A DNA stretch of 64,000 bases from Ochrobactrum vermis (GTDB taxonomy: Bacteria; Pseudomonadota; Alphaproteobacteria; Rhizobiales; Rhizobiaceae), in NCBI RefSeq assembly GCF_002975205.1, contig NZ_PCOC01000002.1:1863501-1927500 (forward strand), written 5' to 3'. Made by a program: the position numbers and the translations under genes. Position 1 is the first letter of the stretch. Each line of letters begins with the position of its first letter. Under the pieces are notes generated by a model. The model worked only from the letters and a program-made list of their open reading frames with translations. It ran no database searches and had not been told where the DNA came from. Positions 626 to 21,112 of the stretch are shown one piece after another.

Positions 626-2419
626 TTATCTTGAGCCAGGGAACAGCAAATCGACAAATCTGGCGGCAGTCGGTTGCGGCTCATGATTGGCAAGACCCGG
701 ACGCTCATTGGCTTCAACGAAGATGTAGTCCGGCTTTCCGGGCTGCTTGACCATGAAGTCAATGCCCACGACCGGTATACCAATTGCTTGGGCAGCCTTG
801 CAGGCAGCCTTGACCAGGTCTGCATGAACCGTGGCGGTCACGTCATGGATCGTGCCGCCCGTATGAAGATTGGCCGCCTTGCGCACGGTTATTTCGCGAC
901 CGTCGTCCAGAACAGTGTCGAGTGACAGAGCTTGTTCTTCAAGACATCTCTTCGTTTCCGCATCGACAGGAATACGGCTCTCTCCACCGGTCGCCGCAGC
1001 GCGTCTGCGCGATTGTGTTTCAATAAGCTTGCGGATGGTTGACCTGCCGTCTCCTATCACGCGTGGCGGGCGGCGAACCGCAGCCGCGACAAGCTGGTAA
1101 TCGATGATAACGAGCCGAAGGTCTTCACCTTCAAAACATGCCTCCAGCAGCACACGGTCGCACACGCTTCGCGCCTGTTTGATCGCAGTGCGCAGATCCT
1201 TCATAGTCGAAATACCGACGGAAATCCCTCGTCCCTGTTCGCCTCGAGCCGGTTTCACAACCAGCTTGCCGTGACGTTTCAGAAAAGCGTCCAGCGCGTC
1301 ATCACTCGCCTCCGCGGCGATTTGGTCCGGCACCGTCAGCCCGGCTTTCTCAACGACACGGCGCGTCACGGCCTTGTCGTCGCAGATCGACATCGCTACG
1401 CCCGACGTCATTTCAGACAGGCTTTCGCGACAATGAACCGAGCGCCCGCCATAGGAGAGGCGGAAAAATCCGCCCTCGGCATCGGTCACATCAACCTGAA
1501 TGCCACGGCGCACCGCTTCATCGATGATGATCCGGGCATATGGATTGAGCGCATCGAAGGATTCCAGGTGCGAGGCGAAAAACTTCTCGTTAATTGCATT
1601 CTTGCGTTTGATCGCGAAAAGCGGAACACGGCGAAACTTCAATTTTTCGTAGAGCCGTATGGCGTTCTCATTGTCATGCAGAACCGAAAGATCGATATGG
1701 CTTAGACCGCGAGCCTGAAAATGTTCGGCAAGTTTTCGCACCAGTTTTTCGCCGATTCCCGGCTGCCGTGCTTGCGGATGAACGGCGAGGCACCAGAGCG
1801 AAGCACCACAATCAGGATCATCGAAAAGACGCTGATGATCGATACCCGTCACCGTGCCGACGACTTCACCTGTGGCATCGTCCTGTGCCACGAAATAGGT
1901 AACGGCCCGGTTGTCTCGGTCAGACGAGAAAAAGTCCGGTCGCAACTGAACCATGCCGCAGGCCGCATAGACGGCATTGATGCCTTCGGCATCCACTTCC
2001 GATACCGCGCGGCGAATGGTAATGCCGCGCGTCCGTCGACCGCCCGGACGATAGGTTGCAAGCTCGATTCGATAGGTATGCGACGGGTCGAGAAATATCT
2101 CATGCGGCGCAAGCGACAGCAGGACATGAGGATCACTGACGTAGAAGACGATATCGCGGCTTGCCGGCGCCTCCGCTCGCAATGCCTCCACAATGGCCTC
2201 ATTGGTTTCGAAGGTCTGGGCAAAGAGCAATCGTCCCCAGCCGCAGTCGACGACCACATCCTGCTTGCGGCCTTCCGTTCCCGCCCTGTCATGGCCATAC
2301 GTGTGTTCCTGATAGAAACCTGCACTTTCAGGCGTGCGCAAGCGTGTCAGACGATGCGAAAAGGCTTTGCGGCCTCTCGCTTTCTGCCGGGTCATATCCA
2401 CCTCACCGGGTTTCCGCAT
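626..2419 (-). CDS. ngg: N-acetylglutaminylglutamine synthetase (GNAT + ATP-grasp)
   Basis: This 597-residue protein should make the dipeptide N-acetylglutaminylglutamine, precursor of the osmoprotectant NAGGN. The N-terminal half carries a GNAT acetyltransferase fold; LWCLAVHPQARQPGIG is the acetyl-CoA-binding segment and DNENAIRLYEKLKFRR the typical GNAT ending. The C-terminal half is an ATP-grasp ligase (KLVVKPARGEQGRGISVG; FVEANERPGL near the end). This two-domain order is characteristic of the family. I chose the ATG at 2419 because AGGAGG lies 6 nt upstream and the start falls 1 nt after the asnO stop; a longer reading frame back to 2482 would overlap asnO. It is the last gene of the run and is probably translationally coupled to asnO. 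Confidence 0.92.
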   Translation of the reverse strand: MRKPGEVDMTRQKARGRKAFSHRLTRLRTPESAGFYQEHTYGHDRAGTEGRKQDVVVDCGWGRLLFAQTFETNEAIVEALRAEAPASRDIVFYVSDPHVLLSLAPHEIFLDPSHTYRIELATYRPGGRRTRGITIRRAVSEVDAEGINAVYAACGMVQLRPDFFSSDRDNRAVTYFVAQDDATGEVVGTVTGIDHQRLFDDPDCGASLWCLAVHPQARQPGIGEKLVRKLAEHFQARGLSHIDLSVLHDNENAIRLYEKLKFRRVPLFAIKRKNAINEKFFASHLESFDALNPYARIIIDEAVRRGIQVDVTDAEGGFFRLSYGGRSVHCRESLSEMTSGVAMSICDDKAVTRRVVEKAGLTVPDQIAAEASDDALDAFLKRHGKLVVKPARGEQGRGISVGISTMKDLRTAIKQARSVCDRVLLEACFEGEDLRLVIIDYQLVAAAVRRPPRVIGDGRSTIRKLIETQSRRRAAATGGESRIPVDAETKRCLEEQALSLDTVLDDGREITVRKAANLHTGGTIHDVTATVHADLVKAACKAAQAIGIPVVGIDFMVKQPGKPDYIFVEANERPGLANHEPQPTAARFVDLLFPGSR

Positions 2420-2420
2420 T

Positions 2421-4196
2421 TCATGCCTCCTGTGCCTGGAGCCACATTTCGAGGAGGCCAGCCTGCCAAAGCTCCGAACCACGCAATGGCGTTATGTGAT
2501 CCGACGGCTTTGCGAACAGGCGTTCCAGATAATCGCGTTGAAAAAGCCCGCGTTCCCGTGCCTTTTGCGAAGAGAGAGCATCGCGCAACATGTCGAGATA
2601 GGGGCCAGCAATATATTTAAGCTGAGGCACCGGGAAATATCCCTTCTTGCGATCGATGACTTCGCTGGGAACGACTTTCCTTGCCACATCCTTGAGGATA
2701 CCTTTGCCGCCATCACGCAGCTTCTCTTCAGGCGGAATGCGAGCGGCAAGCTCTACCAGTTCATGATCTAGAAACGGCACCCGCGCTTCAAGTCCCCATG
2801 CCATCGTCATGTTGTCCACGCGTTTGACCGGATCGTCCACGAGCATCACATTCGTGTCGAGCCGCAATGCACGGTCGACAGGTGTATCCGCACCATCCTG
2901 CAGCAGATATTCTTCCAGAAACTCCTGACTGTAATCGCGTTCCGGCATCCATTCCGGCGATAATTGCGTGGCAAGTACGTCATGCGAGCGGTCGCGAAAT
3001 CCCTTGGCGTAGTCGCTCACAACATCGTTGGAATCGACCAGTGGCGGATACCAATGGTAGCCGCCGAAAACCTCATCAGCCCCCTGCCCCGATTGGACAA
3101 CCTTGATATGTTTCGAAACTTCCTTTGAAAGAAGATAGAAGCCTACATTGTCATAGGACACCATCGGTTCCGACATTGCGGCGATTGTTCCCGGCAGGGC
3201 ATCCATGAGGTCTGCCGAGGGCACAAAAATCTTATGATGTTCGGTGCCAAAATGTTTGGCGATCAGGTCGGAATAGACAAACTCGTCGCCTTTTTCTCCA
3301 TTGGCTTCCTCGAAACCGACTGAAAAGCTCATCAGGCCGGATTGACCGGCCTCGGCAAGCAACCCGACGATCAGGCTCGAATCCACACCGCCGGACAAAA
3401 GCACGCCGACTGGCACGTCAGAAATCATCCTGCGCTTGACGGCTACACGAAGCATATCGAGCAATTGCTCCTGCCATTCCTCCCGGCTCAAGGCGCCGTC
3501 ACCCGGCAGACGGCGATAAAGTGCCTGCCAGTAGATACGGTCGCTGAAACTGCCATTCGGTTCGTAAACCCGGATCGTCGCGGGAGGAAGCTTTCGAACA
3601 CCTTGGTAAATCGTGCGCGGCGGCGGCACAACAGCATGAAAGCTCATGTAATTGTGCAAGGCCGCACGGTCGATCGAGGTGTCTATGCCTCCCGCCTTGA
3701 CCAGAGCAGGCAAGGACGAGGCAAAACGCAACGCGCCATCCACCTCGGCAAGATAGAGCGGCTTGATGCCGAACCGGTCGCGCGCGAGGATAATCCTGCC
3801 CGTATCGCGCTCGTGAATGGCGAAGGCGAACATGCCGAGGAAGCGCGATACGCAGCTTTCGCCCCAAGCGTGCCATGCCTTGAGGATGACTTCCGTGTCG
3901 CCGTCGGAGAAGAATTTATAACCCTTCAGTTCCAACTCAGCGCGCAATTCGCGGAAATTGTAGATGCAGCCATTGAACACCAGCGTCAAACCGAGGTCGG
4001 CATCGATCATCGGCTGTTGCGACTTTTCGGAGAGATCGAGAATTCTTAGTCTTCGATGCCCGAAGCCGATATTGCCCCGGATCACAATCCCGGACGCATC
4101 CGGTCCACGAGGACTGAGTACATCCGCCATTTTCGAGATTGCCGAAACTGACGGCGAACCGCCGTCGAACCTGACTTCTCCGCAAATACCACACAT
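2421..4196 (-). CDS. asnO: N-acetylglutaminylglutamine amidotransferase (asparagine-synthase family)
   Basis: This 591-residue class II amidotransferase/asparagine-synthetase-like enzyme is expected to convert the dipeptide acid made by Ngg into the amide NAGGN. The ATG at 4196 puts Cys at position 2 (MCGICGE), which the N-terminal nucleophile mechanism requires; a start further upstream would bury it. The glutaminase domain spans about residues 1-200 (GHRRL, FNGCIYN, SDGDTEV, FGIKPLY). The synthetase domain has the pyrophosphate loop SGGVDSS at 268-274 and SGQGADEVFGGY further on. Its stop is 1 nt from the ngg start. Ordinary AsnB is the alternative, but the ngg partner and the M42 gene in the same run favour the NAGGN role. 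Confidence 0.92.
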   Translation of the reverse strand: MCGICGEVRFDGGSPSVSAISKMADVLSPRGPDASGIVIRGNIGFGHRRLRILDLSEKSQQPMIDADLGLTLVFNGCIYNFRELRAELELKGYKFFSDGDTEVILKAWHAWGESCVSRFLGMFAFAIHERDTGRIILARDRFGIKPLYLAEVDGALRFASSLPALVKAGGIDTSIDRAALHNYMSFHAVVPPPRTIYQGVRKLPPATIRVYEPNGSFSDRIYWQALYRRLPGDGALSREEWQEQLLDMLRVAVKRRMISDVPVGVLLSGGVDSSLIVGLLAEAGQSGLMSFSVGFEEANGEKGDEFVYSDLIAKHFGTEHHKIFVPSADLMDALPGTIAAMSEPMVSYDNVGFYLLSKEVSKHIKVVQSGQGADEVFGGYHWYPPLVDSNDVVSDYAKGFRDRSHDVLATQLSPEWMPERDYSQEFLEEYLLQDGADTPVDRALRLDTNVMLVDDPVKRVDNMTMAWGLEARVPFLDHELVELAARIPPEEKLRDGGKGILKDVARKVVPSEVIDRKKGYFPVPQLKYIAGPYLDMLRDALSSQKARERGLFQRDYLERLFAKPSDHITPLRGSELWQAGLLEMWLQAQEA

Positions 4197-4319
4197 AAAA
4201 AGGGTCGAAACCTCCATTGTCATTCATAAACAAACAAGGCCGTCGCATCTGGTATGGCGGCGGCCTGCATAATTGCAAATGCGGGAGCGCCGGGATGGTT
4301 CCCAACTTTTTGGGTTGCG

Positions 4320-5099
4320 TTACGCGGTTTTCCCGACCGTATTTGCCTTGGAAAGCATGTAGTTTTCAGCAGAAACCATATGCTCATAGGTAATGCGACG
4401 GGCATCTTCGCTACGGTTTTCGACAAGCGCCGTCAGCAATCGGTGCTGGAAAATAAGTCCTTCCTCGCGCGAAGCCGGTGTCGGATCGGCATAGATCGCA
4501 CGCGCTATCGGCAAGCTTCGCAACAGATTGTGGGTCAATCCGCAAATGAAGCCTAGCAAGCGATCGGGACAAAGCTGCGCCAGCAAAGAATGGAAATCCA
4601 GTTCCGCTACACGCTGGTGGTATTGATCATCAAGATCGACCGGCGGACGGTCATAGACGCGCATTGTGGTTTCCAGCCGGGCAATGTCGTTGCCGGTCAG
4701 TCTTCCGCACAGCAGGGCCGCGACTTCCGGTTCGAGAAGCTTGCGAATGGCATAGACTTCGGCAAGGCTCGGCTGGTCGAAAAAGAAATAGCTTCCGAGC
4801 ATTTCCATCGCATGCTGGGCGGAAGGCTCGGCCACAAAGGCGCCGCCGCCAGGGCCGCTGCGCGTAAAAATCAGACCCTGTGTTTCCAGCGCCTTCATCG
4901 CTTCGCGCACAGTGCCCTTAGCCGCCTTGAACTGATCGATCAATTCCTTTTCCTGCGGCAGGCGGTCTCCCGGTTTCAATGCATCGGAACGGATGACGTC
5001 CTTGATACGGTCGGCAATCTCCTCCGGTCGCCGGCGGGCTTTTACCGCCCTCGCGAGCGCTTGCGGTTCGTGATCGGAATTCCGGCCCGGTCTGACCAT
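4320..5099 (-). CDS. GntR-family (FadR/FCD) transcriptional regulator
   Basis: This 259-residue protein has an N-terminal winged helix-turn-helix (about residues 25-90: EEIADRIKDVIRSDALKPGDRLPQEKELIDQF, then GTVREAMKALETQGLIFTRSG) and a C-terminal all-helical FCD ligand-binding domain. The ATG at 5099 lies 6 nt after the stop of the transporter ATPase gene, so it belongs to the same transcript. It sits between the peptide importer and the NAGGN genes and is the obvious candidate regulator of both. The effector is unknown; a peptide or NAGGN fragment is inference. The 123-bp gap before asnO could hold a secondary promoter, but I see no strong one. Confidence 0.85.
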   Translation of the reverse strand: MVRPGRNSDHEPQALARAVKARRRPEEIADRIKDVIRSDALKPGDRLPQEKELIDQFKAAKGTVREAMKALETQGLIFTRSGPGGGAFVAEPSAQHAMEMLGSYFFFDQPSLAEVYAIRKLLEPEVAALLCGRLTGNDIARLETTMRVYDRPPVDLDDQYHQRVAELDFHSLLAQLCPDRLLGFICGLTHNLLRSLPIARAIYADPTPASREEGLIFQHRLLTALVENRSEDARRITYEHMVSAENYMLSKANTVGKTA

Positions 5100-5105
5100 A
5101 GTCTG

Positions 5106-5903
5106 CTACTCTCTCCTGATGCGCGGCGCGCTTTCCACGAGTTGTCGTGTATAGGCATGTTCCGGCCTGGCAAAAAGATCGCTTGCGGTCGCTTCCTCGA
5201 CTATTTCCCCGAAATACATCACGGCAACCCTGTCCGAGATGGCTTCCACCACGGCAAGGTCGTGACTGATGAAGAGATAGGAGAGACCGAACTCTTTCTT
5301 CAGTTGATCGAGAAGCAATAAAACCTGTGCCTGAACGGAGACATCCAGCGCACTGACCGGTTCATCGAGCACGACGATTTCGGCTTCCGCAGCCAGCGTT
5401 CGCGCAATGGCGATGCGTTGCGCCTGTCCGCCGGAAAACTCGTGCGGATATCGTTCCAACGTATCATTGGGCATCTGGACGGCATCGAGCAATTGGATCA
5501 TGCGCTGCCTGCGTTGTGCAGAATCCAGTCCACCCAGAAGCTTAAGCGGCGTTTCCAGTATCTGGCGGATCGTCTTTCTGGGATTGAGTGAAGCGACAGG
5601 GTCCTGAAACACATATTGTATGACCTTGCCGAATGCCCGCGCACCCGAATTCCGCAGCTCATTTGAATCCCGACCAGCAATCGTCATCGTGCCGTCCGTC
5701 GGCTCCGTCAGCCCGACAAGCATTCTGGCGAGCGTGCTTTTACCCGACCCGCTTTCACCGACAATGGCCAATGTCTCGCCGCTTCTGAGGTCGAACGAAA
5801 CATGTTTAACGGCTTCGACTTTGTGACGAGGCTTCCCCAGAAAAGTTCGTCCGCCACCGAAGGTTTTGCTGAGATCGCGCACGCTGATCGCATTGTCGCT
5901 CAT
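5106..5903 (-). CDS. Peptide-type ABC importer, ATP-binding subunit (DppF/OppF-like)
   Basis: This 265-residue nucleotide-binding subunit of a dipeptide/oligopeptide importer has Walker [10 protein letters not shown] at 49-57, the Q-loop region QYVFQDP near 96-102, signature FSGGQ at 156-160 and Walker B EIVVLDEP around 175-182. It lacks the usual long OppF C-terminal extension, so it is at the short end of the family. Its ATG overlaps the stop of the fusion gene upstream by 4 nt (ATGA), indicating translational coupling. The neighbours supply a second ATPase domain, two permease domains and a binding protein, making a complete importer. Confidence 0.9.
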   Translation of the reverse strand: MSDNAISVRDLSKTFGGGRTFLGKPRHKVEAVKHVSFDLRSGETLAIVGESGSGKSTLARMLVGLTEPTDGTMTIAGRDSNELRNSGARAFGKVIQYVFQDPVASLNPRKTIRQILETPLKLLGGLDSAQRRQRMIQLLDAVQMPNDTLERYPHEFSGGQAQRIAIARTLAAEAEIVVLDEPVSALDVSVQAQVLLLLDQLKKEFGLSYLFISHDLAVVEAISDRVAVMYFGEIVEEATASDLFARPEHAYTRQLVESAPRIRRE

Positions 5904-7699
5904 CCTGTCGCCTTTCCGTTATCGCGTCCGAAGAGACCGGCCACACGGTCCAAAAAGCCGGTTCCCTGCCCAAGTTCGGGAACACATGCGATCAGGCGCT
6001 TCGTGTAGCTATGCTGCGGATTGGAAAGAACTTCCGCGGTCGTACCCGTCTCGACAATCTCGCCATCTTTCATTACCGCCACGCGGTCGCAAATCTCCGA
6101 AACCACACCGAAATCATGGGTAATGAACAGAAGCGCCATGCCCCGCTCGCGTTGAAGATCGCGCAGCAGTTCAAGAATATGTGCCTGCACAGTAACGTCG
6201 AGCGCCGTCGTCGGTTCGTCTGCAATAATGATATCGGGATCGTTGGCCAGAGCCATTGCGATGCCGACGCGCTGTCGCTGACCACCTGAAAGCTGGTGCG
6301 GATAGTGATTGGCCCGCGCCGCTGCATCGGGAATACCAACCTTGTCGAGAAGGGCAATTGCCTGCTGCCGCCGTTCGGTGGCCCCAACCCGCCGATGCGC
6401 CGCAATTGCTTCCTCCACCTGCCGCCCGACCGGATACATGGGGTGCAGGGTCGTCAATGGGTCCTGAAACACATAGGCTACTCTTGCTCCTCGAGCGGCC
6501 GTCAACTCGGTTTCAGACATCGAAAGGACGTCCCGCTCGCCCAGATAGATTGCACCGTTGCGTATAAGGCCGGGCGGGGATGCCACAAGCCCCATCACCG
6601 ACAAGGCGGTTACGCTCTTGCCTGATCCGCTTTCACCAATCAGGCCGAGGCATTCGCCACGCTCTAGTTCCAGTGAAACATTGCGGACGGCGGGTGTGAA
6701 GCGTCCACCATTGACGAAGCCTGTTTCCAGCCCGGCAATGGAAAGCGCTTTTGCGCTGCCCTTGGTCACTGGCGACGACCGGTCCTTGGCAATATCGGTC
6801 ACTGCCCCCGGTCGGCCCAATGCACCGGATCGCAATCGCGGATCGAGAACATCGCGCACCCCGTCTCCCAATACGTTGAGACTGATGACCAACAGGAAGA
6901 TCATCAATCCGGGTACGATGGAGACATGCGGGGCATTGAACAACTGAGCCCGACCTTCGCCGAGCATGGAGCCAAGATCGGCCTGTGGCGGTTGTGCGCC
7001 GAGGCCAAGGAAGCTCAAGCCCGCCGTTTCGAGGATCATCCAGCCGGCCGTCGTCGACATGGTAATGACGATAACCGGCAGCACATTGGGCAGCACTTCA
7101 CTCAACAGGATCGAAACCGGGCTTTTTCCTGAAAGCCGGGCAGCGTCGATGAACTCGCGATGCGCGAGACCAAGCGTAACGCCGCGAACATTGCGCGCGA
7201 AGAATGGAATATTGACCACCGCAATCGCATAGAGCGCGTTCATCAGGCCCGGCCCGAGTACCGCCACGATAGCCAGCGCCAGCAGAATATAAGGAAATGC
7301 CATCAGCATATCGATGCCGCGCATCATCAGATTGTCGGTTCGTCCACCCGCATAGCCAGCCACGAGACCTATGGCCGAGCCCACGATAGCCGCGATGAGT
7401 GTCGCCGCGAAGCCAACAGCCACTGAAACCCGCGTACCCCATATGACGCGGCTCAATATATCGCGCCCGAGCTGATCTGTTCCAAGAAGGTGCCCCTCAC
7501 TGAACACGGTCTTCAATCGCATTGCAGGTGAGGTGGCGTCGGGATCGGGAAGCGGAAGAACGGGAGCCAGCAGAATGACGAGACATATCAGAATGAGCAA
7601 AAATAAGCCGAAAGCCGCCAGGCGATTGCTCATCAGAAGACCCCATGAGGACATGCGACCAACCGCAGGCGCGGCAGAAACTTCCTGAAGCGCACTCAT
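5900..7699 (-). CDS. Peptide-type ABC importer, fused permease-ATPase (DppC-DppD)
   Basis: This 599-residue protein joins two subunits that are normally separate. Residues about 1-290 are a DppC-like permease: a first membrane segment near 27-48, [15 protein letters not shown] at 70-84, and the EAA loop [15 protein letters not shown] at 182-196 that contacts the ATPase. A linker follows. From about 318 there is a DppD-like ATPase with Walker A GESGSGKS at 355-362, LSGGQRQR, and DEPTTALD. The reading frame is continuous, with no sign of a sequencing join. It overlaps the next gene by 4 nt on each side (ATGA junctions). Such fusions are known in Hyphomicrobiales peptide importers. Confidence 0.9.
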
Positions 7700-8643
7700 G
7701 AGCGTATCCTTGGATCAAGCATGGTCTGGATGACATCAGCCAGCAGATTGAAGAGGACGTAACTCGCGGCAACCACAAGCACGCCGCCTTGCACCAGCAG
7801 AATATCACGGGTGGAAATGGCCTTCACCAGCATGGCGCCGATACCCGGCCACTGGAATACCGTCTCGATGTAGACGGCACCGCCCAGTACGAAACCCGCC
7901 TGAATACCGATAACTGGAATGACGCTCACAAGTGCGGCTCGAAACGCATGGCCGTAAATCACGCGGCGTTCGTTGAGGCCTTTGGCCCGGGCGGTCCGGA
8001 TATAATCCTGACGAAGCACTTCCAGCATCGCGCTGCGGGTCAGGCGCGCTATCACGCCTGCGGCCACCACTGCGAGCGTCGTGGCGGGAAGGATCAGATG
8101 CCACAGCAGATCCTTCAGGTCGCCCCCGCCATAAACGGCGTACATGCCGGACGCTGGCAGGATGCGCCAATGGACCGCGAAGAGATAGATCAGCAGCAGT
8201 CCCAGCCAGAATGAGGGAATGGAAATTCCCGCAAGCACGATGAAAGTGATCGTCCTGTCTGCCCAGCCGAACTGACGCACTGCCGAAACGATGCCTGCGA
8301 GCAACCCGAAGACAGAACACAGCACCAGTGCGACGCCAGCAAGCACAAGGGTCGCCTGAAAACGTTCCAGAACCTCATCCAGCACCGGACGGTTGAGCAC
8401 AAAGGAGCGCCCGAAATCGCCGCGCAGGAGGTTGCCCATCCAGACGAAATATTGTTGCACCAGCGGCTTGTCGAGGCCGAGATCGCGATTGATCCGCTCG
8501 ACATTCTCCGGCGTTGCATATGATCCAAGCAGCGCAGTTGCCGTATCGCCAGGTATCATCGCCATGACGAGAAAAACGATGATCGAAAGCCCGAGCAACA
8601 CAGGAACAACGGCGACAAGTCGCTTGAGGATATAGGCTGGCAT
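7696..8643 (-). CDS. Peptide-type ABC importer, permease subunit (DppB-like)
   Basis: This 315-residue inner-membrane protein starts MPAYILKRLVAVVPVLLGLSIIVFLVMAMIPGD, the typical DppB/OppB N-terminal segment. It has several further hydrophobic helices and the conserved EAA-like loop YIRTARAKGLNERRVIYGHAFRAAL. The C-terminus (LFNLLADVIQTMLDPRIR) is also typical. Its stop overlaps the start of the permease-ATPase fusion by 4 nt, and its own start is 15 nt after the binding-protein stop. It should pair with the DppC-like half of the fusion to form the channel. Confidence 0.92.
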   Translation of the reverse strand: MPAYILKRLVAVVPVLLGLSIIVFLVMAMIPGDTATALLGSYATPENVERINRDLGLDKPLVQQYFVWMGNLLRGDFGRSFVLNRPVLDEVLERFQATLVLAGVALVLCSVFGLLAGIVSAVRQFGWADRTITFIVLAGISIPSFWLGLLLIYLFAVHWRILPASGMYAVYGGGDLKDLLWHLILPATTLAVVAAGVIARLTRSAMLEVLRQDYIRTARAKGLNERRVIYGHAFRAALVSVIPVIGIQAGFVLGGAVYIETVFQWPGIGAMLVKAISTRDILLVQGGVLVVAASYVLFNLLADVIQTMLDPRIRS

Positions 8644-8658
8644 GAAAGCCCTCCTCGC

Positions 8659-10221
8659 TTATTCCTTGGTTACGTCTTTCAAATGCAGCAGAAAGGACGG
8701 CTGCAGCTTGAACCCTTTGACGCCAGCCGTCGTGACTGCGTTCTGTTTCCAGTTCGCCACGAAAAGCCATGGCGCATCGTCATGGACGATACTTTGCACT
8801 TCACCATAAAGCTTTCCGCGTTCGGCCTGATCGGTCGACGACCGTGCCCTTTCCAGAAGCTCATCCACTTTGGGGTTGGAATAGTAGCCGGAATTGAATC
8901 CGCCCTTGTCCGGGAGCGCGTCGCTGCGCAGCGTCAGATAAGGCACCGTGTCCGGATCATTCGTCATCCACGCCATCTCGGCCATATCGGCCTTGCCTTC
9001 CAGCCCCGGATTGACCTTGCCAAGAAACGTGTTCCATTCGTAGGTTTCAATCTTGACCTTGAAGCCCACGGCCTGAAGATCGGCCTGGATCGCGGCGCCC
9101 ATTGTGATCGGATCGAGCATACCTGAACCGCCTTCGGTCACGTAGAACGTGATTTCCGGATTGCTGGCTCCGGCCTCCGTGAGAAGTGCCTTGGCCTTTT
9201 CCGGGTCGTATGGATAGGGCTCGATCTTGTTCTCGACCCAGTTGAAGGCCGGCGGGATAGGCCCGGCAGCAACGGTCGCAGAACCCTGCAATACATTCTC
9301 GACGAGCCCTTGCTTGTTGACCGCATAATTTGCAGCCTGGCGCACTTTCTTATCCGCAAAGGGACCGCTCTTCGCATTCAGGATGGTGAACCACACATGC
9401 GGACCAGCCTGTTCAGCGACCGCGAAATTCGCGTCCTGCTTGAATGTGGCAAGATTGTCCGGCGGCACTTCCACCATGACATCCAGCCCGCCCGCCATCA
9501 TCTCCGCAACGCGGGTATTGGCATCTGTGATCGGGCGGAACACGATTGCTTCCAGTGTCGGTGCCTTGTCCCAATAATCGGGATTGCGTTCCACGACCAC
9601 ACGCTGGCCGGATTGCCATTCCGCAAATTTGAAAGGACCGGTTCCCGATGGATGACGGCCAAATTCCTTACCGTATTTTTTGACCGCTTCCGGGGAAACG
9701 ATCAGGCCGGTTGGATAGGCCAGATTAGACAGGAACGGGGCGAAAGGCTCCTTCAGCTTGAACTCGACCGTGTGTTCATCAAGAGCATTGACCGCATCGA
9801 TGGACGAGAAATTGAACGAAAGCGGGAACGGGCCAGTGTTGTAGAAGGGATGGTCTTCCTTCAGCATTCTGTCGAAGTTGAATTTAACCGCCTCAGCGTT
9901 CAAATCCGATCCGTCATGAAATTTCACGCCCTGGCGCAGCTTGAACGTATAGGCCTTGCCGTCGTCCGAGACCGTCCAGCTTTCAGCCAAAGCCGGCTCC
10001 ACTTCCAGCGTCCCGTCCTTGTAACGCACAAGGCCATCGTAAATGTTGACGAGAATGCGGAAATCATTGGTGGCTGTGACTGTATGCGGATCAAGCGATT
10101 GCGGTTCTGCAATCTGTCCGACGATCAGCACATTGGGCGGTGTTTGCGCTGAAGCGTCCGTGCCCGCCCCTGCAACTGAAAGCACCATAGCAGTCAAGAC
10201 GGCACAGAATAACCTTCTCAT
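8659..10221 (-). CDS. Peptide-type ABC importer, periplasmic binding protein (SBP family 5)
   Basis: This 520-residue extracytoplasmic solute-binding protein has a signal peptide at residues 1-25, with likely cleavage after ASA. The family 5 signature follows (EPQSLDPHTV, NIYDGLVRYKDG, ALAESWTVSDDGKAYTFKLRQGVKFHDG). It is the first importer gene and has its own leader region, so it is probably the most strongly expressed. The family binds di/oligopeptides, nickel, glutathione or opines; the actual ligand cannot be read from sequence. The NAGGN genes downstream suggest, as inference only, uptake of acylated or amidated glutamine peptides. Confidence 0.9.
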   Translation of the reverse strand: MRRLFCAVLTAMVLSVAGAGTDASAQTPPNVLIVGQIAEPQSLDPHTVTATNDFRILVNIYDGLVRYKDGTLEVEPALAESWTVSDDGKAYTFKLRQGVKFHDGSDLNAEAVKFNFDRMLKEDHPFYNTGPFPLSFNFSSIDAVNALDEHTVEFKLKEPFAPFLSNLAYPTGLIVSPEAVKKYGKEFGRHPSGTGPFKFAEWQSGQRVVVERNPDYWDKAPTLEAIVFRPITDANTRVAEMMAGGLDVMVEVPPDNLATFKQDANFAVAEQAGPHVWFTILNAKSGPFADKKVRQAANYAVNKQGLVENVLQGSATVAAGPIPPAFNWVENKIEPYPYDPEKAKALLTEAGASNPEITFYVTEGGSGMLDPITMGAAIQADLQAVGFKVKIETYEWNTFLGKVNPGLEGKADMAEMAWMTNDPDTVPYLTLRSDALPDKGGFNSGYYSNPKVDELLERARSSTDQAERGKLYGEVQSIVHDDAPWLFVANWKQNAVTTAGVKGFKLQPSFLLHLKDVTKE

Positions 10222-10257
10222 GGGGTTCCCCTTCGTTTGTCAAATCCGTCAGACTCT

Positions 10258-10275
10258 AATTTATAGGCATAAATT
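10258..10275. promoter_or_regulatory. Perfect dyad in the importer promoter region, candidate operator
   Basis: AATTTAT and ATAAATT flank a 4-bp spacer 37 bp upstream of the binding-protein start. On the minus strand a possible promoter (TTGATG, 16-17 bp, TATAAA) overlaps it. A dyad on a putative -10 is a plausible binding site for the operon's GntR regulator; there is no direct proof. Confidence 0.4.
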
Positions 10276-10314
10276 TACGATCATCAATGAATTATCATAA
10301 TTAATTTTCTTGAG

Positions 10315-10340
10315 CCAAAAAAGCGGACCTCAGCCCGCTT
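10315..10340 (-). terminator. Rho-independent terminator after the M42 peptidase gene
   Basis: Read on the minus strand, AAGCGG and CCGCTT form a 6-bp stem with an 8-nt loop, followed directly by a run of T. It sits 22 bp past the M42 stop, between that gene and the importer genes. It should reduce read-through and make the importer-GntR-NAGGN run a separate transcript from the M42 gene. Confidence 0.7.
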
Positions 10341-10362
10341 GTGATTTCGGAACGTTCAAAGC

Positions 10363-11526
10363 CTATTCGGCAGGCGTATCTTCGGGTTTCAGATCCTGCT
10401 CAGCCTTGGTCGATTTCTGATGTGTAAAGCCTTTGAGGCCCTTCGCAGTTTCCTCGGCATCGCGCTTGATCTCGACCTCGCTCATTGCGTAGTGAACAGC
10501 AAGTTTTGCAATGGAGGTCAGCGCGCTCAGATGAATGCGCTCATATCCGTGCGAGGCATCAACACCGAAGGTCAGCAGAGCCGTGCGCACATCATGCCCG
10601 GCTTCGACCGCGGACGCGGCATCAGAACGGTAATAGCGAAACACGTCCTTCTGCACCTGAATGTCATGCTCTGCGCAAAGCTCGTAGAGCTTCTTCGTCA
10701 GATGATAGTCGAACGGCCCGGTCTGATCCGCCATGGCAAGCGTGACACCAAACTCCGATGAATTCTGGCCCGGCGCAGTGGTGCCATTGTCAATGGCGAC
10801 CAGTGAGGCAATATCGGGCACGACGACCGCGGAAGCCCCCACGCCCACTTCCTCGCCGATGGTAAACAGCCAATAGCTATCGACCGGCGTTTCCACATTC
10901 GCTCGCTGCATCGCCTCCAGAGCTGCAAGCATGATGGCAACGCCTGCCTTATCATCCAGATGGCGCGATACGATAAAGCCATTATCGATGAATTCAGGCG
11001 CCGGATCGACGGCAACGATGTCGCCGACATCGATACCGAGTTGCAGCAGATCATCTCTATTTCGCGCGAGTGCATCCACGCGAAGTTCAACATAAGGCCA
11101 GCCAACCGGCTGCGTATCGACTTCCTCATTGAAAGTATGGCCGGAAGCCTTCAACGGCAGAATCGAACCGCGATAAATGCCTTTCGACGAAAAGATGGAA
11201 ACGCGGGCACCTTCGGCGAAGCGTGCGGACCAGTTACCGATCGAAACCAGTTCCAGCCGCCCGTTTTCCTTCAGATATTTTACCTGCGCGCCCAGCGTGT
11301 CGACATGCGATACGATTCCGCGCGCTGGTCGCTCCGTCACGCCTGCCCTGCGCGCACGAATGGCACCCCGGCGCGTCAGTATCACCTCAAGCCCGAGATG
11401 CTCCAGTTCTCGCGCAACATAACGGACGGCTTCGTCGGTAAACCCGGTCGGACTGGGTATGGCAAGAAGCGCTTTGAGCCGTGTTACGAGATAGTCCTGA
11501 TCGATTGTGATAGCGGTCTGCATCAT
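10363..11526 (-). CDS. M42-family metallopeptidase, NAGGN-system type
   Basis: This 387-residue cytosolic zinc aminopeptidase-like protein has recognisable metal and catalytic residues: H74 and D76 in SHVDTLG, D191/D192 in LDDKAG, E225/E226 in GEEVG, D246, and H326 in ASHGYER. M42 enzymes of this branch co-occur with ngg and asnO in many bacteria and are annotated as the third member of the NAGGN trio; the true substrate is not established to my knowledge. The ATG pair at 11526/11523 has no good ribosome-binding site, so the start is uncertain by a codon. The C-terminus is polar and extends slightly beyond the catalytic core. Confidence 0.88.
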   Translation of the reverse strand: MMQTAITIDQDYLVTRLKALLAIPSPTGFTDEAVRYVARELEHLGLEVILTRRGAIRARRAGVTERPARGIVSHVDTLGAQVKYLKENGRLELVSIGNWSARFAEGARVSIFSSKGIYRGSILPLKASGHTFNEEVDTQPVGWPYVELRVDALARNRDDLLQLGIDVGDIVAVDPAPEFIDNGFIVSRHLDDKAGVAIMLAALEAMQRANVETPVDSYWLFTIGEEVGVGASAVVVPDIASLVAIDNGTTAPGQNSSEFGVTLAMADQTGPFDYHLTKKLYELCAEHDIQVQKDVFRYYRSDAASAVEAGHDVRTALLTFGVDASHGYERIHLSALTSIAKLAVHYAMSEVEIKRDAEETAKGLKGFTHQKSTKAEQDLKPEDTPAE

Positions 11527-15455: not shown

Positions 15456-15734
15456 TTCTTCCTCACTGGTTGGGAGACGCAAAGATCCGTTCGCGCATCG
15501 CAGGATGCGCGTCAAAAAGCACAAGATAGGAAATCGGTCAGCCGCCAAGATGGGTAGCCTGACCGCAACAAACTATGCCTCGTAGGGAGGACCGGAACCG
15601 GAACTGAATAGACTGGACATGGACTTCACCCCGAAGCTATGAGCGGGAAGTTCGGGGCAGCAATCGGCAAGGCAATAGCTTGCCACACAAGATTGCGCGC
15701 CAACCGGACACCCCGCCCGTGGACGTACTCGTTC
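15456..15734 (-). promoter_or_regulatory. Leader between the cobalamin riboswitch and nrdH, candidate expression platform
   Basis: No gene is visible here. Two stem-loops can form: GGCAAG/CTTGCC (15666-15684, 7-nt loop) and CCCCGAA/TTCGGGG (15629-15657, 15-nt loop). Neither is followed by a T-run on the minus strand, so a classic intrinsic terminator is not evident. Control may be Rho-dependent or act on a structure I cannot resolve by eye. Confidence 0.4.
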
Positions 15735-15903
15735 AAGGCAGGTCTCCTGGCTCACGGATCAACGTTTCTGTCCGCCTTCCCAGCCGAAGCCAGTGACATG
15801 ATGAACAGAACTCTCCGCTTACAGTTGCGGGGGCAGCTCCGGCATTGCCGCATCCGTCATGGATGAAACGCACCGGATTCCCGTCTTAGCTTTCGACTCA
15901 ACG
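15735..15903 (-). ncRNA. Cobalamin (B12) riboswitch upstream of nrdHIEF
   Basis: Reading the minus strand, conserved elements appear in the canonical order: GGGAATCCGGTG, then GCCGGAGCTGCCCCCGCAAC and TGTAAGCGG, then GTCACTGG, GGGAAGGCGG, and finally the B12 box AGCCAGGAGACCTGCC at 15737-15752. This is a complete aptamer. B12 riboswitches commonly lower expression when cobalamin is abundant. In front of a B12-independent reductase this fits a switch to a B12-dependent class II enzyme (NrdJ), which would be encoded elsewhere; no nrdJ is in this window. Confidence 0.95.
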
Positions 15904-15920
15904 AATCGAAAGAACCTAGA

Positions 15921-15957
15921 ACACTATATATAGTAGTCGAAGTTAAAAACTCGTCAA
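15921..15957 (-). promoter_or_regulatory. nrdHIEF promoter with overlapping NrdR-box-like palindrome
   Basis: On the minus strand a -35 TTGACG (15957-15952), a 16-bp spacer and a -10 TACTAT (15935-15930) lie just upstream of the riboswitch. The -10 is embedded in ACACTATATATAGTAG (15921-15936), close to the NrdR box pattern. NrdR usually binds two boxes about three helical turns apart; I find no convincing second box nearby. Confidence 0.7.
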
Positions 15958-18643: not shown

Positions 18644-20023
18644 ATGTCTGCGGAGAATAAATTGAGCACTGAACGTATCGACGGTCAGGAGCAGCCATAT
18701 TGGCCTGCCGGACCGTTTAAAATCCGCCTGCCCTTTGTTCACTACAAATTCGAATGGCCCGATTATTTTCAAGGCCTGTTGATGTGTGCAGTGGACCTGT
18801 CCGCCATCCCTCTCATGACTGAACTCCTTGGCATGCCTTTCGAAGTGGCCCTTGCCGTGGTCGTCCTGAACGGATTGTTCTATCTGACGCACCATTTGCT
18901 TGGCGATCCCGTCGTTCCGGGCTGGATCACGCCTGCCATTCCGCTTCTGATGGCCTATTGCGCCACTTTCCCGGAAGGACCAGAGCGGGTTCATGCACTT
19001 GTCGCCTTCCAGATGATGCTCGGCATATTCTCGATCTTCATCGGTGCAACGGGGATGGCGCATCGCGTCGTGCAATTGATTCCATCGGCGATCAAGGCTG
19101 GCATCATTGCTGGTGCGGGCTTTGCCGCCGTCATTTCGGTATTTCAGATTGGCGGTCGTTTCGATACGTTCCCGTTCACAATCACCATTGCCGTTGGCCT
19201 TGGTTTCTATGTGATCTTCTCGCGCCAGTTCGCACGCATTAAAAACAGCAATCCGGTACTGGCCCTCATTGGAAAGCTGGGTGTTTTCCCGATTATCCTG
19301 CTCGCAGTCATCATAGCCCCGCTCTTCGGCGAAGCCCCCTGGCCAAAGCTTGAATGGTCACTGACCAGTCCCGACTTCTCGACGCTTTGGCGTGAATATA
19401 CCGTGTTCGGTCTCGGCCTGCCGCCGCTGTCGATGTTCATTACCGCCATGCCGACCATGTTCGCTGCCTATATCGTTCTTTTCGGCGACGTTCTGCAAAG
19501 CCGCGCAATCCTGAAGGAAGCCGACGAAGCCCGCCCCGACGAAAAGATCGACTATAGCCCGGACCGCGCTCATCTCATCTTCGGTGGACGCAACGCTGCA
19601 ATGAGCGTGCTCGGACCGGACGTCTGCATGTGCGGCCCGCTCTGGTCGGCCATGCATGTGGTCATCACCGAGCGCTTCTCGCAGGGCAAGAAGGCCATGC
19701 ACTCGCTTTTCGGCGGCGCGGGTTCTTTCCGGTGGGGAACCAATACCGGCTTGTTCCTGATGCCGATCGTAACGCTCGTGCAGCCGATCCTTGGCGTCGC
19801 ACTCGCACTTACCTTGCTCATTCAGGGATATGTTTCGGTTCGCGTCGGTATTCTTGAGGCACGCTCCCAGCGAGATCTCGGCATCGCCGGAGTGGTTGGG
19901 GCAGTTCTTGCAACACGTGGAGCCGCGTGGGCTTTTGCTACCGGAGTCGTCCTGTGCTTCCTGATATATGGCCGTGATTTCTTCCGTGGCGAAGTAGACA
20001 ACACCTTTACCAAGGACAGCTGA
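18644..20023 (+). CDS. Multi-pass membrane permease (possibly xanthine/uracil-type, SLC23-like)
   Basis: This 459-residue protein has about a dozen hydrophobic segments and polar termini. Stretches such as GDPVVPGWITPAIPLLMAY, LIPSAIKAGIIAGAGFAAVISVFQIGG and GPDVCMCGPLWSAMHVV, with amphipathic re-entrant character, resemble the NCS2/SulP-like UraA fold. I do not recognise a specific subfamily. The ATG at 18644 has no good ribosome-binding site; an in-frame TTG at 18662 has GGAG 6 nt upstream and may be the true start. It is likely co-transcribed with the alcohol dehydrogenase and presumably imports its substrate or the precursor. Confidence 0.6.
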   Translation: MSAENKLSTERIDGQEQPYWPAGPFKIRLPFVHYKFEWPDYFQGLLMCAVDLSAIPLMTELLGMPFEVALAVVVLNGLFYLTHHLLGDPVVPGWITPAIPLLMAYCATFPEGPERVHALVAFQMMLGIFSIFIGATGMAHRVVQLIPSAIKAGIIAGAGFAAVISVFQIGGRFDTFPFTITIAVGLGFYVIFSRQFARIKNSNPVLALIGKLGVFPIILLAVIIAPLFGEAPWPKLEWSLTSPDFSTLWREYTVFGLGLPPLSMFITAMPTMFAAYIVLFGDVLQSRAILKEADEARPDEKIDYSPDRAHLIFGGRNAAMSVLGPDVCMCGPLWSAMHVVITERFSQGKKAMHSLFGGAGSFRWGTNTGLFLMPIVTLVQPILGVALALTLLIQGYVSVRVGILEARSQRDLGIAGVVGAVLATRGAAWAFATGVVLCFLIYGRDFFRGEVDNTFTKDS

Positions 20024-20028
20024 TCGAT

Positions 20029-20055
20029 AGCCCTCCCGGCTGGACCGGGAGGGCT
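20029..20055. terminator. Bidirectional terminator between convergent genes
   Basis: A perfect 11-bp stem (AGCCCTCCCGG / CCGGGAGGGCT) with a 5-nt loop lies in the 42-bp gap between the permease and thuB. On the plus strand a T5 run follows after 9 nt, so it terminates the permease transcript best. Confidence 0.8.
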
Positions 20056-20065
20056 TCCAACATTT

Positions 20066-21112
20066 TTATCCGCTCACGACTTCGGGCAACGGCCGATCTA
20101 CGATCATCGCATGATCCAGAACGCGTTGCAGATTGGCGGCATGGCGGAAACTCGGCTCCAGCTCCGCACCATCGGCGACAGCGCGTGCAAAACGCTGGTA
20201 GTTCGTCTCCACCGTACCGGCATCGATATCGCGCCAGACCGGCGTTTCGATATCCTCGCCGATAGAGCCGCGCAGGCTTGAACCGGTAGGCGTATGAAGG
20301 ATTTCCAGTGCGCCCTTGTCGCCATGGATGCGCAGGCGTAACTCGTTCAGGTGGCCCGTCGCCCACCGGCTCGCATGAATGACACCCAACGCACCATTGG
20401 CATACTCCGCCATCATGACGAAGCTGTCATTCGCATCGAGCACATACTCACCGATATGGTCATTGTCTGCCTTCTCGAAGGTTTTCAGGCGCGCAGACGC
20501 CCGCTCCACATCGCTGCCGATGGCATAGCTGGCGAAATCGAGAATATGAATGCCGACATCGCCCAGAACACCGTTCGACCCGTGGCGGGTTGAAAGACGC
20601 CAGAGCCATTTGCTCTCGGTCTTCCAGTCACCCCATGTCTTCGACACCAACCAGCTTTGCAGATAGGATGCCTCGAAGTGGCGCACCTGACCGATCTCGC
20701 CTGCCATCACGATCTCGCGCGCCTTCTGTAGGGGAGCGACATTGCGATAGGTCAGGTTGACCATGTTTATGACATTGGCCTGTTCGGCAGCATCCGCCAT
20801 TTCGGCGGCTTTTTCATAGCTTTCAGCGAGCGGCTTTTCGCAGAAAACATGCTTGCCCGCCCCGACCAGCGCCAGCGTGGTCGGGTGATGAATGGCGTCG
20901 GGCGTCACATTGGCAACCGCATCGAAGCGGCCCCATTCCAGCGCATCTTCAAGCCGCGTGAAGCGGTTATGAATGTCGTGGTTTTCCGAAAACGCATCGA
21001 CGCGTTCCGCTGAAACATCACAGGCCGCAACGACCTCAACGCCATTGATCGCCCTGAAGGCTGCGGCATGGTTTTTCGCCATGCCGCCAGTACCCAGAAT
21101 AAGAAGACGCAT
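20066..21112 (-). CDS. thuB: ThuB-like oxidoreductase (Gfo/Idh/MocA family)
   Basis: This 348-residue NAD(P)-dependent oxidoreductase has the dinucleotide motif GTGGMA at 7-12 and the family EKP motif at 92-94 (VFCEKPLAES). In Sinorhizobium, thuA and thuB are needed for trehalose, maltose or sucrose use through 3-keto disaccharides; the role here follows from conserved gene order. The ATG at 21112 is chosen for its upstream GAGGTG; it lies 8 nt after the thuA stop. It is the last gene of thuEFGKAB. Confidence 0.88.
   Translation of the reverse strand: MRLLILGTGGMAKNHAAAFRAINGVEVVAACDVSAERVDAFSENHDIHNRFTRLEDALEWGRFDAVANVTPDAIHHPTTLALVGAGKHVFCEKPLAESYEKAAEMADAAEQANVINMVNLTYRNVAPLQKAREIVMAGEIGQVRHFEASYLQSWLVSKTWGDWKTESKWLWRLSTRHGSNGVLGDVGIHILDFASYAIGSDVERASARLKTFEKADNDHIGEYVLDANDSFVMMAEYANGALGVIHASRWATGHLNELRLRIHGDKGALEILHTPTGSSLRGSIGEDIETPVWRDIDAGTVETNYQRFARAVADGAELEPSFRHAANLQRVLDHAMIVDRPLPEVVSG

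Follow-up and report, generated by a model that had tools for sequence, protein, structure and literature searches.

A Dpp-type importer with its own GntR-type regulator beside NAGGN synthesis genes in Ochrobactrum vermis: a candidate route for osmolyte uptake and breakdown

Gene content and transcription units of the locus

The window, a stretch of 64,000 nucleotides, comes from a 5.4-Mb genome assembled in three contigs. Its minus strand carries, read 5'-3', genes for an M42 peptidase, a family-5 solute-binding protein (SBP), a permease, a fused permease-ATPase, an ATPase, a GntR/FCD regulator, AsnO and Ngg, all in open reading frames. The features are as follows.

626..2482, minus strand: ngg, N-acetylglutaminylglutamine synthetase (TIGR03103, 916.6 bits, cut-off 569)
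2421..4223, minus strand: asnO, N-acetylglutaminylglutamine amidotransferase (TIGR03104, 1010.6 bits, cut-off 570.1)
4278..4302, minus strand: EcfG-like promoter GGAAC-N16-CATT before asnO (alignment, motif counts)
4320..5099, minus strand: GntR/FCD regulator, 259 aa (PF00392, PF07729)
5106..5903, minus strand: DppF-like ATPase, 265 aa (PF00005, PF08352)
5900..7699, minus strand: DppC-like permease joined to a DppD-like ATPase within one ORF, 599 aa (PF12911, PF00528, PF00005, PF08352)
7696..8643, minus strand: DppB-like permease, 315 aa (PF00528, PF19300)
8659..10221, minus strand: family-5 SBP, 520 aa (PF00496, SBP_bac_5)
10259..10274, no strand: predicted operator for GntR, a perfect ATTTATN4ATAAAT with its centre about 45 bp ahead of the SBP start (motif counts)
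10290..10305, minus strand: weaker second palindrome with two mismatches, 31 bp further upstream (alignment)
10321..10340, minus strand: terminator-like hairpin of 8 pairs with a T-run, after M42 (hairpin scan)
10363..11526, minus strand: NAGGN-trio M42 peptidase, 387 aa (TIGR03106, 587.4 bits, cut-off 397.75)

The first-pass annotation had described these genes as lying in one orientation, with a complete Dpp-type importer and with ngg, asnO and M42 as the trio for N-acetylglutaminylglutamine amide (NAGGN). We confirm this: the trio scores above its three curated TIGRFAM cut-offs, and one SBP_bac_5, two BPD_transp_1 and two ABC_tran domains make up a Dpp/Opp-type ABC importer. Absent from that description was that the second permease is fused to the first ATPase, as is also annotated in the loci of relatives. 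The overlapping or near-touching gene ends it had noted are found among the importer and GntR genes, with 4-bp overlaps on either side of the fused gene, a 15-bp gap between SBP and permease and a 6-bp gap between ATPase and GntR; 96 bp separate GntR from the asnO ORF, and 141 bp separate the end of M42 from the SBP gene. The mechanically assigned starts of asnO and ngg are probably too long: for asnO the more likely start is 4196 (ATG TGT, with the catalytic Cys then second), and for ngg a position near 2395.

The genome encodes a single AsnO above the cut-off and 29 family-5 SBP matches to the locus SBP, the next best of which is 35% identical. The closest named relatives of the locus are from Brucella species, which we take to be of the Ochrobactrum kind, and from a 'Rhizobiales bacterium'. 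The same three trio families are found in Pseudomonas aeruginosa as asnO-ngg-M42 (PA3459-PA3461), an operon described as repressed by the MarR protein PA3458 (PMC8070244); in contrast, the window has the importer and GntR genes between M42 and asnO. Elsewhere in the window, a cobalamin riboswitch (15720-15934, minus strand, 127 bits) lies upstream of NrdI/NrdE/NrdF-like genes, an order taken from ORF positions.

A terminator-like hairpin with a T-run lies in the gap between M42 and SBP and makes transcription of the array as one operon unlikely; on this hairpin and the separate promoter-like motifs, a single operon was discarded. The hairpin scan, with 15 such sites against 12.7 expected, is not significant alone; in the aligned loci of Brucella type, a G+C-rich hairpin followed by Ts occurs at the equivalent place.

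The core palindrome TTTATN4ATAAA occurs in 33 of 78 SBP upstream regions, versus at most three in shuffled sets. When up to two mismatches to ATTTATN4ATAAAT were allowed, with the same upstream regions used for discovery and counting, it preceded the SBP gene in 53/53 loci that have GntR, against 1/21 that do not (P 3.6e-17), palindrome and gene agreeing in 73/74 loci. This count covers 74 of 81 rows; the seven left out for short flanks include two (L089, L280) in which the palindrome is present and the sequence ends before any GntR gene could show. Among independent pairs, 5/6 agree and none is against (sign test P 0.06). The regulator combines a GntR winged helix and an FCD domain with a palindrome near its putative target, as in GntR/FadR-type systems, and from its co-variation with the palindrome we predict that it binds this site before the SBP gene. 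The genome contains two perfect sites, and the one outside the locus, upstream of a GAF-GGDEF-like ORF (named by eye), probably arose by chance. Eight importer/SBP loci with neither palindrome nor GntR gene (L259, L262, L264, L275, L276, L281, L282, L283) share a recurrent divergent gene that is aldolase-like by eye.

It had been proposed earlier that GntR balances uptake with synthesis. Our results speak against this, since the palindrome that tracks GntR precedes the importer and is rare upstream of asnO (5/115 loci, on which GntR control of asnO was dismissed), M42 (1/117) and ngg (0/116), and an EcfG-like promoter of its own precedes asnO. The targets of Rhizobium etli EcfG1 are given as GGAAC-N16-CGTT (PMC3892343); instead of the EcfG target motif GGAAC-N16/17-CGTT, the asnO of the window has GGAAC-N16-CATT. 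The GGAAC element is invariant across 14 aligned loci, and the strict form GGAAC-N16/17-[CG]GTT precedes asnO in 17/108 loci (about 0.5 expected; 35/108 with a looser form), versus SBP in 2/82 and M42 in 1/111. The best reading of these motifs is that of separate units, with uptake under GntR and synthesis under stress control. Between the EcfG-like promoter and asnO, the linear-type loci also contain a G+C-rich inverted repeat (window 4224-4280, minus strand); nine rows of the asnO leader gave three invariant pairs and no covariation indicating a conserved RNA structure.

Distribution of the importer and the NAGGN genes

Across 199 genomes evenly sampled from the GTDB family of the window, the importer SBP (E up to 1e-120) was present in 48 and asnO in 75. 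Both occurred in 46 genomes, SBP alone in two (G450, G472), asnO alone in 29 and neither in 122 (Fisher P 1.1e-22); asnO thus accompanies 46/48 importers and is found in 29/151 importer-less genomes, while 29/75 asnO genomes lack the importer. Kinship was handled by genus-level counts and within-genus contrasts. By genus, the counts were 32, 1, 15 and 61 in the same order (P 5e-15), and the within-genus contrasts from the listed genomes gave five for, one against and two ties, which is not significant. A paralogous Dpp-type SBP of the same genome, taken as a single control that is much commoner (155/199) than the importer SBP (48/199), showed no association with asnO (61/94/14/30, P 0.38). Five genomes (G425, G426, G436, G472, G521) had the SBP alone near the match, and their removal left 42/1/33/123 (P 3e-21). 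No importer, asnO or M42 passed the thresholds used in two genomes (G400, G503) from the same genus as the window.

In a class-level sample of 384 genomes, own genome excluded, 13 had the SBP, 22 had asnO and five had both (P 4e-4); the importer adjoined asnO in none of these five. The earlier note had tied the importer to NAGGN, a tie that would be in doubt if the importer occurred equally often without ngg/asnO. This is not so in the family (46/48 with asnO), where the pairing with M42 and the lost peptide anchors described below also favour the tie, but it is partly so in the class, where 8/13 importer genomes lack asnO. Co-occurrence strongly supports the inferred link between importer and NAGGN.

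In 20/46 genomes with both, from 12 genera, importer and asnO are no more than 20 kb apart (about 0.4 expected). The importer was not found within this distance in the other 26; 23 of these importers are on other contigs, a few of them near contig ends, and some adjacency may have been missed. Co-occurrence persists when the 20 adjacent genomes are excluded (26/2 vs 29/122, P 6.5e-14). In a separate collection of 80 asnO loci, 15 had the importer within their flanks. At least seven gene orders were read from the locus maps: M42, importer and GntR, then asnO-ngg (window, Sinorhizobium and Shinella; S. meliloti has M42 some 10 kb farther upstream); M42 between GntR and asnO (L015); importer, then asnO-ngg-M42 (L249, L250, L254); asnO-ngg-M42, then importer (L248, L274); M42 after GntR with asnO-ngg divergent (L251, L255, L256); an inverted importer before asnO-ngg-M42 (L265, L266); an importer convergent with M42 (L263, L268); and one further arrangement in Tropicimonas (L073, L074). 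Adjacency changes at least ten times on the SBP tree, a quick tree with long outgroup branches. The S. meliloti SBP gene is on pSymB (488.9-490.4 kb), and a search for literature on the S. meliloti locus tags returned none.

M42 is present in every one of the 75 family genomes with asnO (in G558 as two pieces below the cut-off). Since it occurs whether or not the importer does, the role of M42 cannot depend on the importer. The importer accompanies M42 even where asnO is not nearby. Klebsiella michiganensis plasmid pKOXM1B and a plasmid of Devosia neptuniae carry a divergent DUF1028 gene followed by SBP, permease, fused protein, ATPase, GntR and M42, with M42 above the TIGR03106 cut-off (457.2 and 447.1 bits, respectively) and on a long branch outside the M42s of producers. 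No plasmid of Klebsiella, Enterobacter or Devosia was among 88 asnO-bearing plasmid records. A Rahnella plasmid has importer, GntR and DUF1028 and lacks M42, and one genome (G301; a single 4.36-Mb contig, 98% complete) combines importer, amidase and M42 and lacks asnO. The importer-M42 cassette had no megablast match in E. coli genomes. On the Klebsiella plasmid (L093), IS26 copies at 10421-11125 and 19569-20273 flank the importer-GntR-M42 cassette.

Binding pocket and partner enzymes

The importer resembles E. coli DppABCDF, which likewise pairs a family-5 SBP with two permease and two ATPase domains, and the best solved match of the locus SBP is a dipeptide-binding protein (E 4e-77). It differs in its fused DppC/DppD, in accompanying NAGGN genes and in the SBP pocket, from which the charged anchors of a free-dipeptide importer, Arg383 and Asp436 of DppA (precursor numbering), are missing. 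In DppA, these two residues face the free ends of the peptide. In an alignment with E. coli DppA, the Arg383 position is occupied by Ser in 78, Ala in two and Val in one of 81 importer SBPs, and the Asp436 position falls within a deletion in 80/81, the exception being a 45% identical Thermomicrobium protein. Among paralogs in the same genome, one keeps both anchors (L006) and another the Arg (L005). NAGGN has neither end free, being N-acetylated and C-amidated, and the missing charge pair is what a ligand with such ends would need. For another SBP, loss of Asp408 (mature numbering) is described as making dipeptides unlikely cargo (PMC3295651). In 80 importer SBPs, 164/520 positions are at least 97% invariant, including GG.GML.P and M.W.T..PD, which suggests one ligand class. 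The glutathione importer GsiABCD is comparable in that GsiB, the best NCBIfam match of the locus SBP (280.9 bits), also lacks both charged residues, but the score is far under the GsiB cut-off of 594 bits and the partner genes differ.

The nearest solved structure to the M42 peptidase is 2gre, whose deposited name is 'Deblocking aminopeptidase' (E 9.1e-65), and M42 is predicted to cleave NAGGN. A second candidate enzyme is a carbamoylase-type amidase, found in 24/48 family loci (at least 45% identity to the Nitratireductor one) and usually divergent from SBP. It belongs to the hydantoinase/carbamoylase family (TIGR01879, 359.7 bits, cut-off 204), and its nearest solved relative is an N-carbamoyl-L-amino acid hydrolase. 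Close orthologs are absent from the genome of the window and five other linear-type genomes tested (best 37%), and also from eight asnO-positive, importer-negative genomes tested (best 40%); because of the latter, we consider that the amidase goes with the importer and not with producers as such. In asnO-less genomes, the importer is mostly beside DUF1028. Several of these genomes have the same SBP motifs, with DUF1028 and a distant amidase nearby and no M42 above the cut-off, and the ligand may therefore exceed NAGGN; importers in asnO-less genomes may serve a broader substrate class.

Proposed route and alternatives

From these genomic comparisons, we propose, with a probability of roughly 60%, that the importer takes up doubly blocked NAGGN and that M42 likely cleaves it, with asnO-ngg as a separate unit likely under a stress-sigma promoter. 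A stress sigma factor would switch on asnO-ngg, the predicted makers of NAGGN. Released later by the same cell or by neighbours, NAGGN would bind the SBP and enter through the importer, encoded with GntR in one predicted uptake unit (SBP to GntR genes, 10221-4320). Import would be induced once GntR leaves the palindrome, with the substrate or a product present as the signal. M42 would then split N-acetyl-Gln from Gln-amide, as suggested by the name of its nearest relative, and in relatives the carbamoylase-type amidase or DUF1028 protein, divergent from the importer, would complete the breakdown. The cell would gain glutamine nitrogen, which makes turnover or scavenging more likely than storage of the imported osmolyte. 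The wider claim, that a dedicated NAGGN import-and-breakdown route with its own GntR switch is common to makers and is plasmid-borne in bacteria, including enterobacteria, that eat the osmolyte of their neighbours, is more tentative, and we hold its chances to be slightly short of even.

Alternatively, the importer could serve for different N-blocked compounds, for instance N-carbamoyl amino acids, N-acyl amino acids or small amides, that yield glutamate or glutamine nitrogen, and producers would keep it as synthesis drains glutamine. The hydantoinase/carbamoylase family of the divergent amidase in many relatives and the shared pocket motifs of importers in asnO-less genomes are in line with this, but we consider it unlikely given the association of the importer with NAGGN genes in the family, its pairing with the NAGGN-type M42 where asnO is not near, and the lack of close amidase orthologs in the eight asnO-positive, importer-negative genomes. 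That leaked NAGGN is recovered as an osmoprotectant, and kept rather than degraded, seems improbable: co-occurrence with the synthesis genes would fit, as would a mechanosensitive-channel gene after ngg, whereas the EcfG-like promoter, seen before asnO in 17/108 loci, is rare before the importer (2/82), which has its own GntR palindrome and has hydrolases as partners. The channel gene lies directly 3' of ngg in only 2/105 asnO loci (L102 21523-23733, L241 11508-13622) and was rejected as a standing partner. An ordinary peptide importer, next to asnO-ngg by descent alone, is very improbable: Dpp importers are common, the locus system is of the Dpp/Opp class and its genome is rich in family-5 SBPs, but adjacency recurs in at least seven orders, co-occurrence holds when the genes are apart, and the peptide-end anchors are lost.

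Many bacteria of soil, plants and water have NAGGN as a major osmolyte. The searchable literature covers its synthesis and regulation, and no NAGGN importer or breakdown route was found in it. The proposed route is similar in plan to ectoine uptake and breakdown in Sinorhizobium, where an osmolyte importer is tied to catabolic enzymes and a regulator, but differs in its solute and enzymes. Naming an importer, a regulator site and a set of enzymes would open NAGGN turnover, and interspecies feeding on the released osmolyte, to direct tests. At a further locus (L161, 8072-14332), an M42 relative below the TIGR03106 cut-off precedes a different Dpp-type importer (29% SBP identity), as if M42 peptidases and Dpp importers pair more widely.
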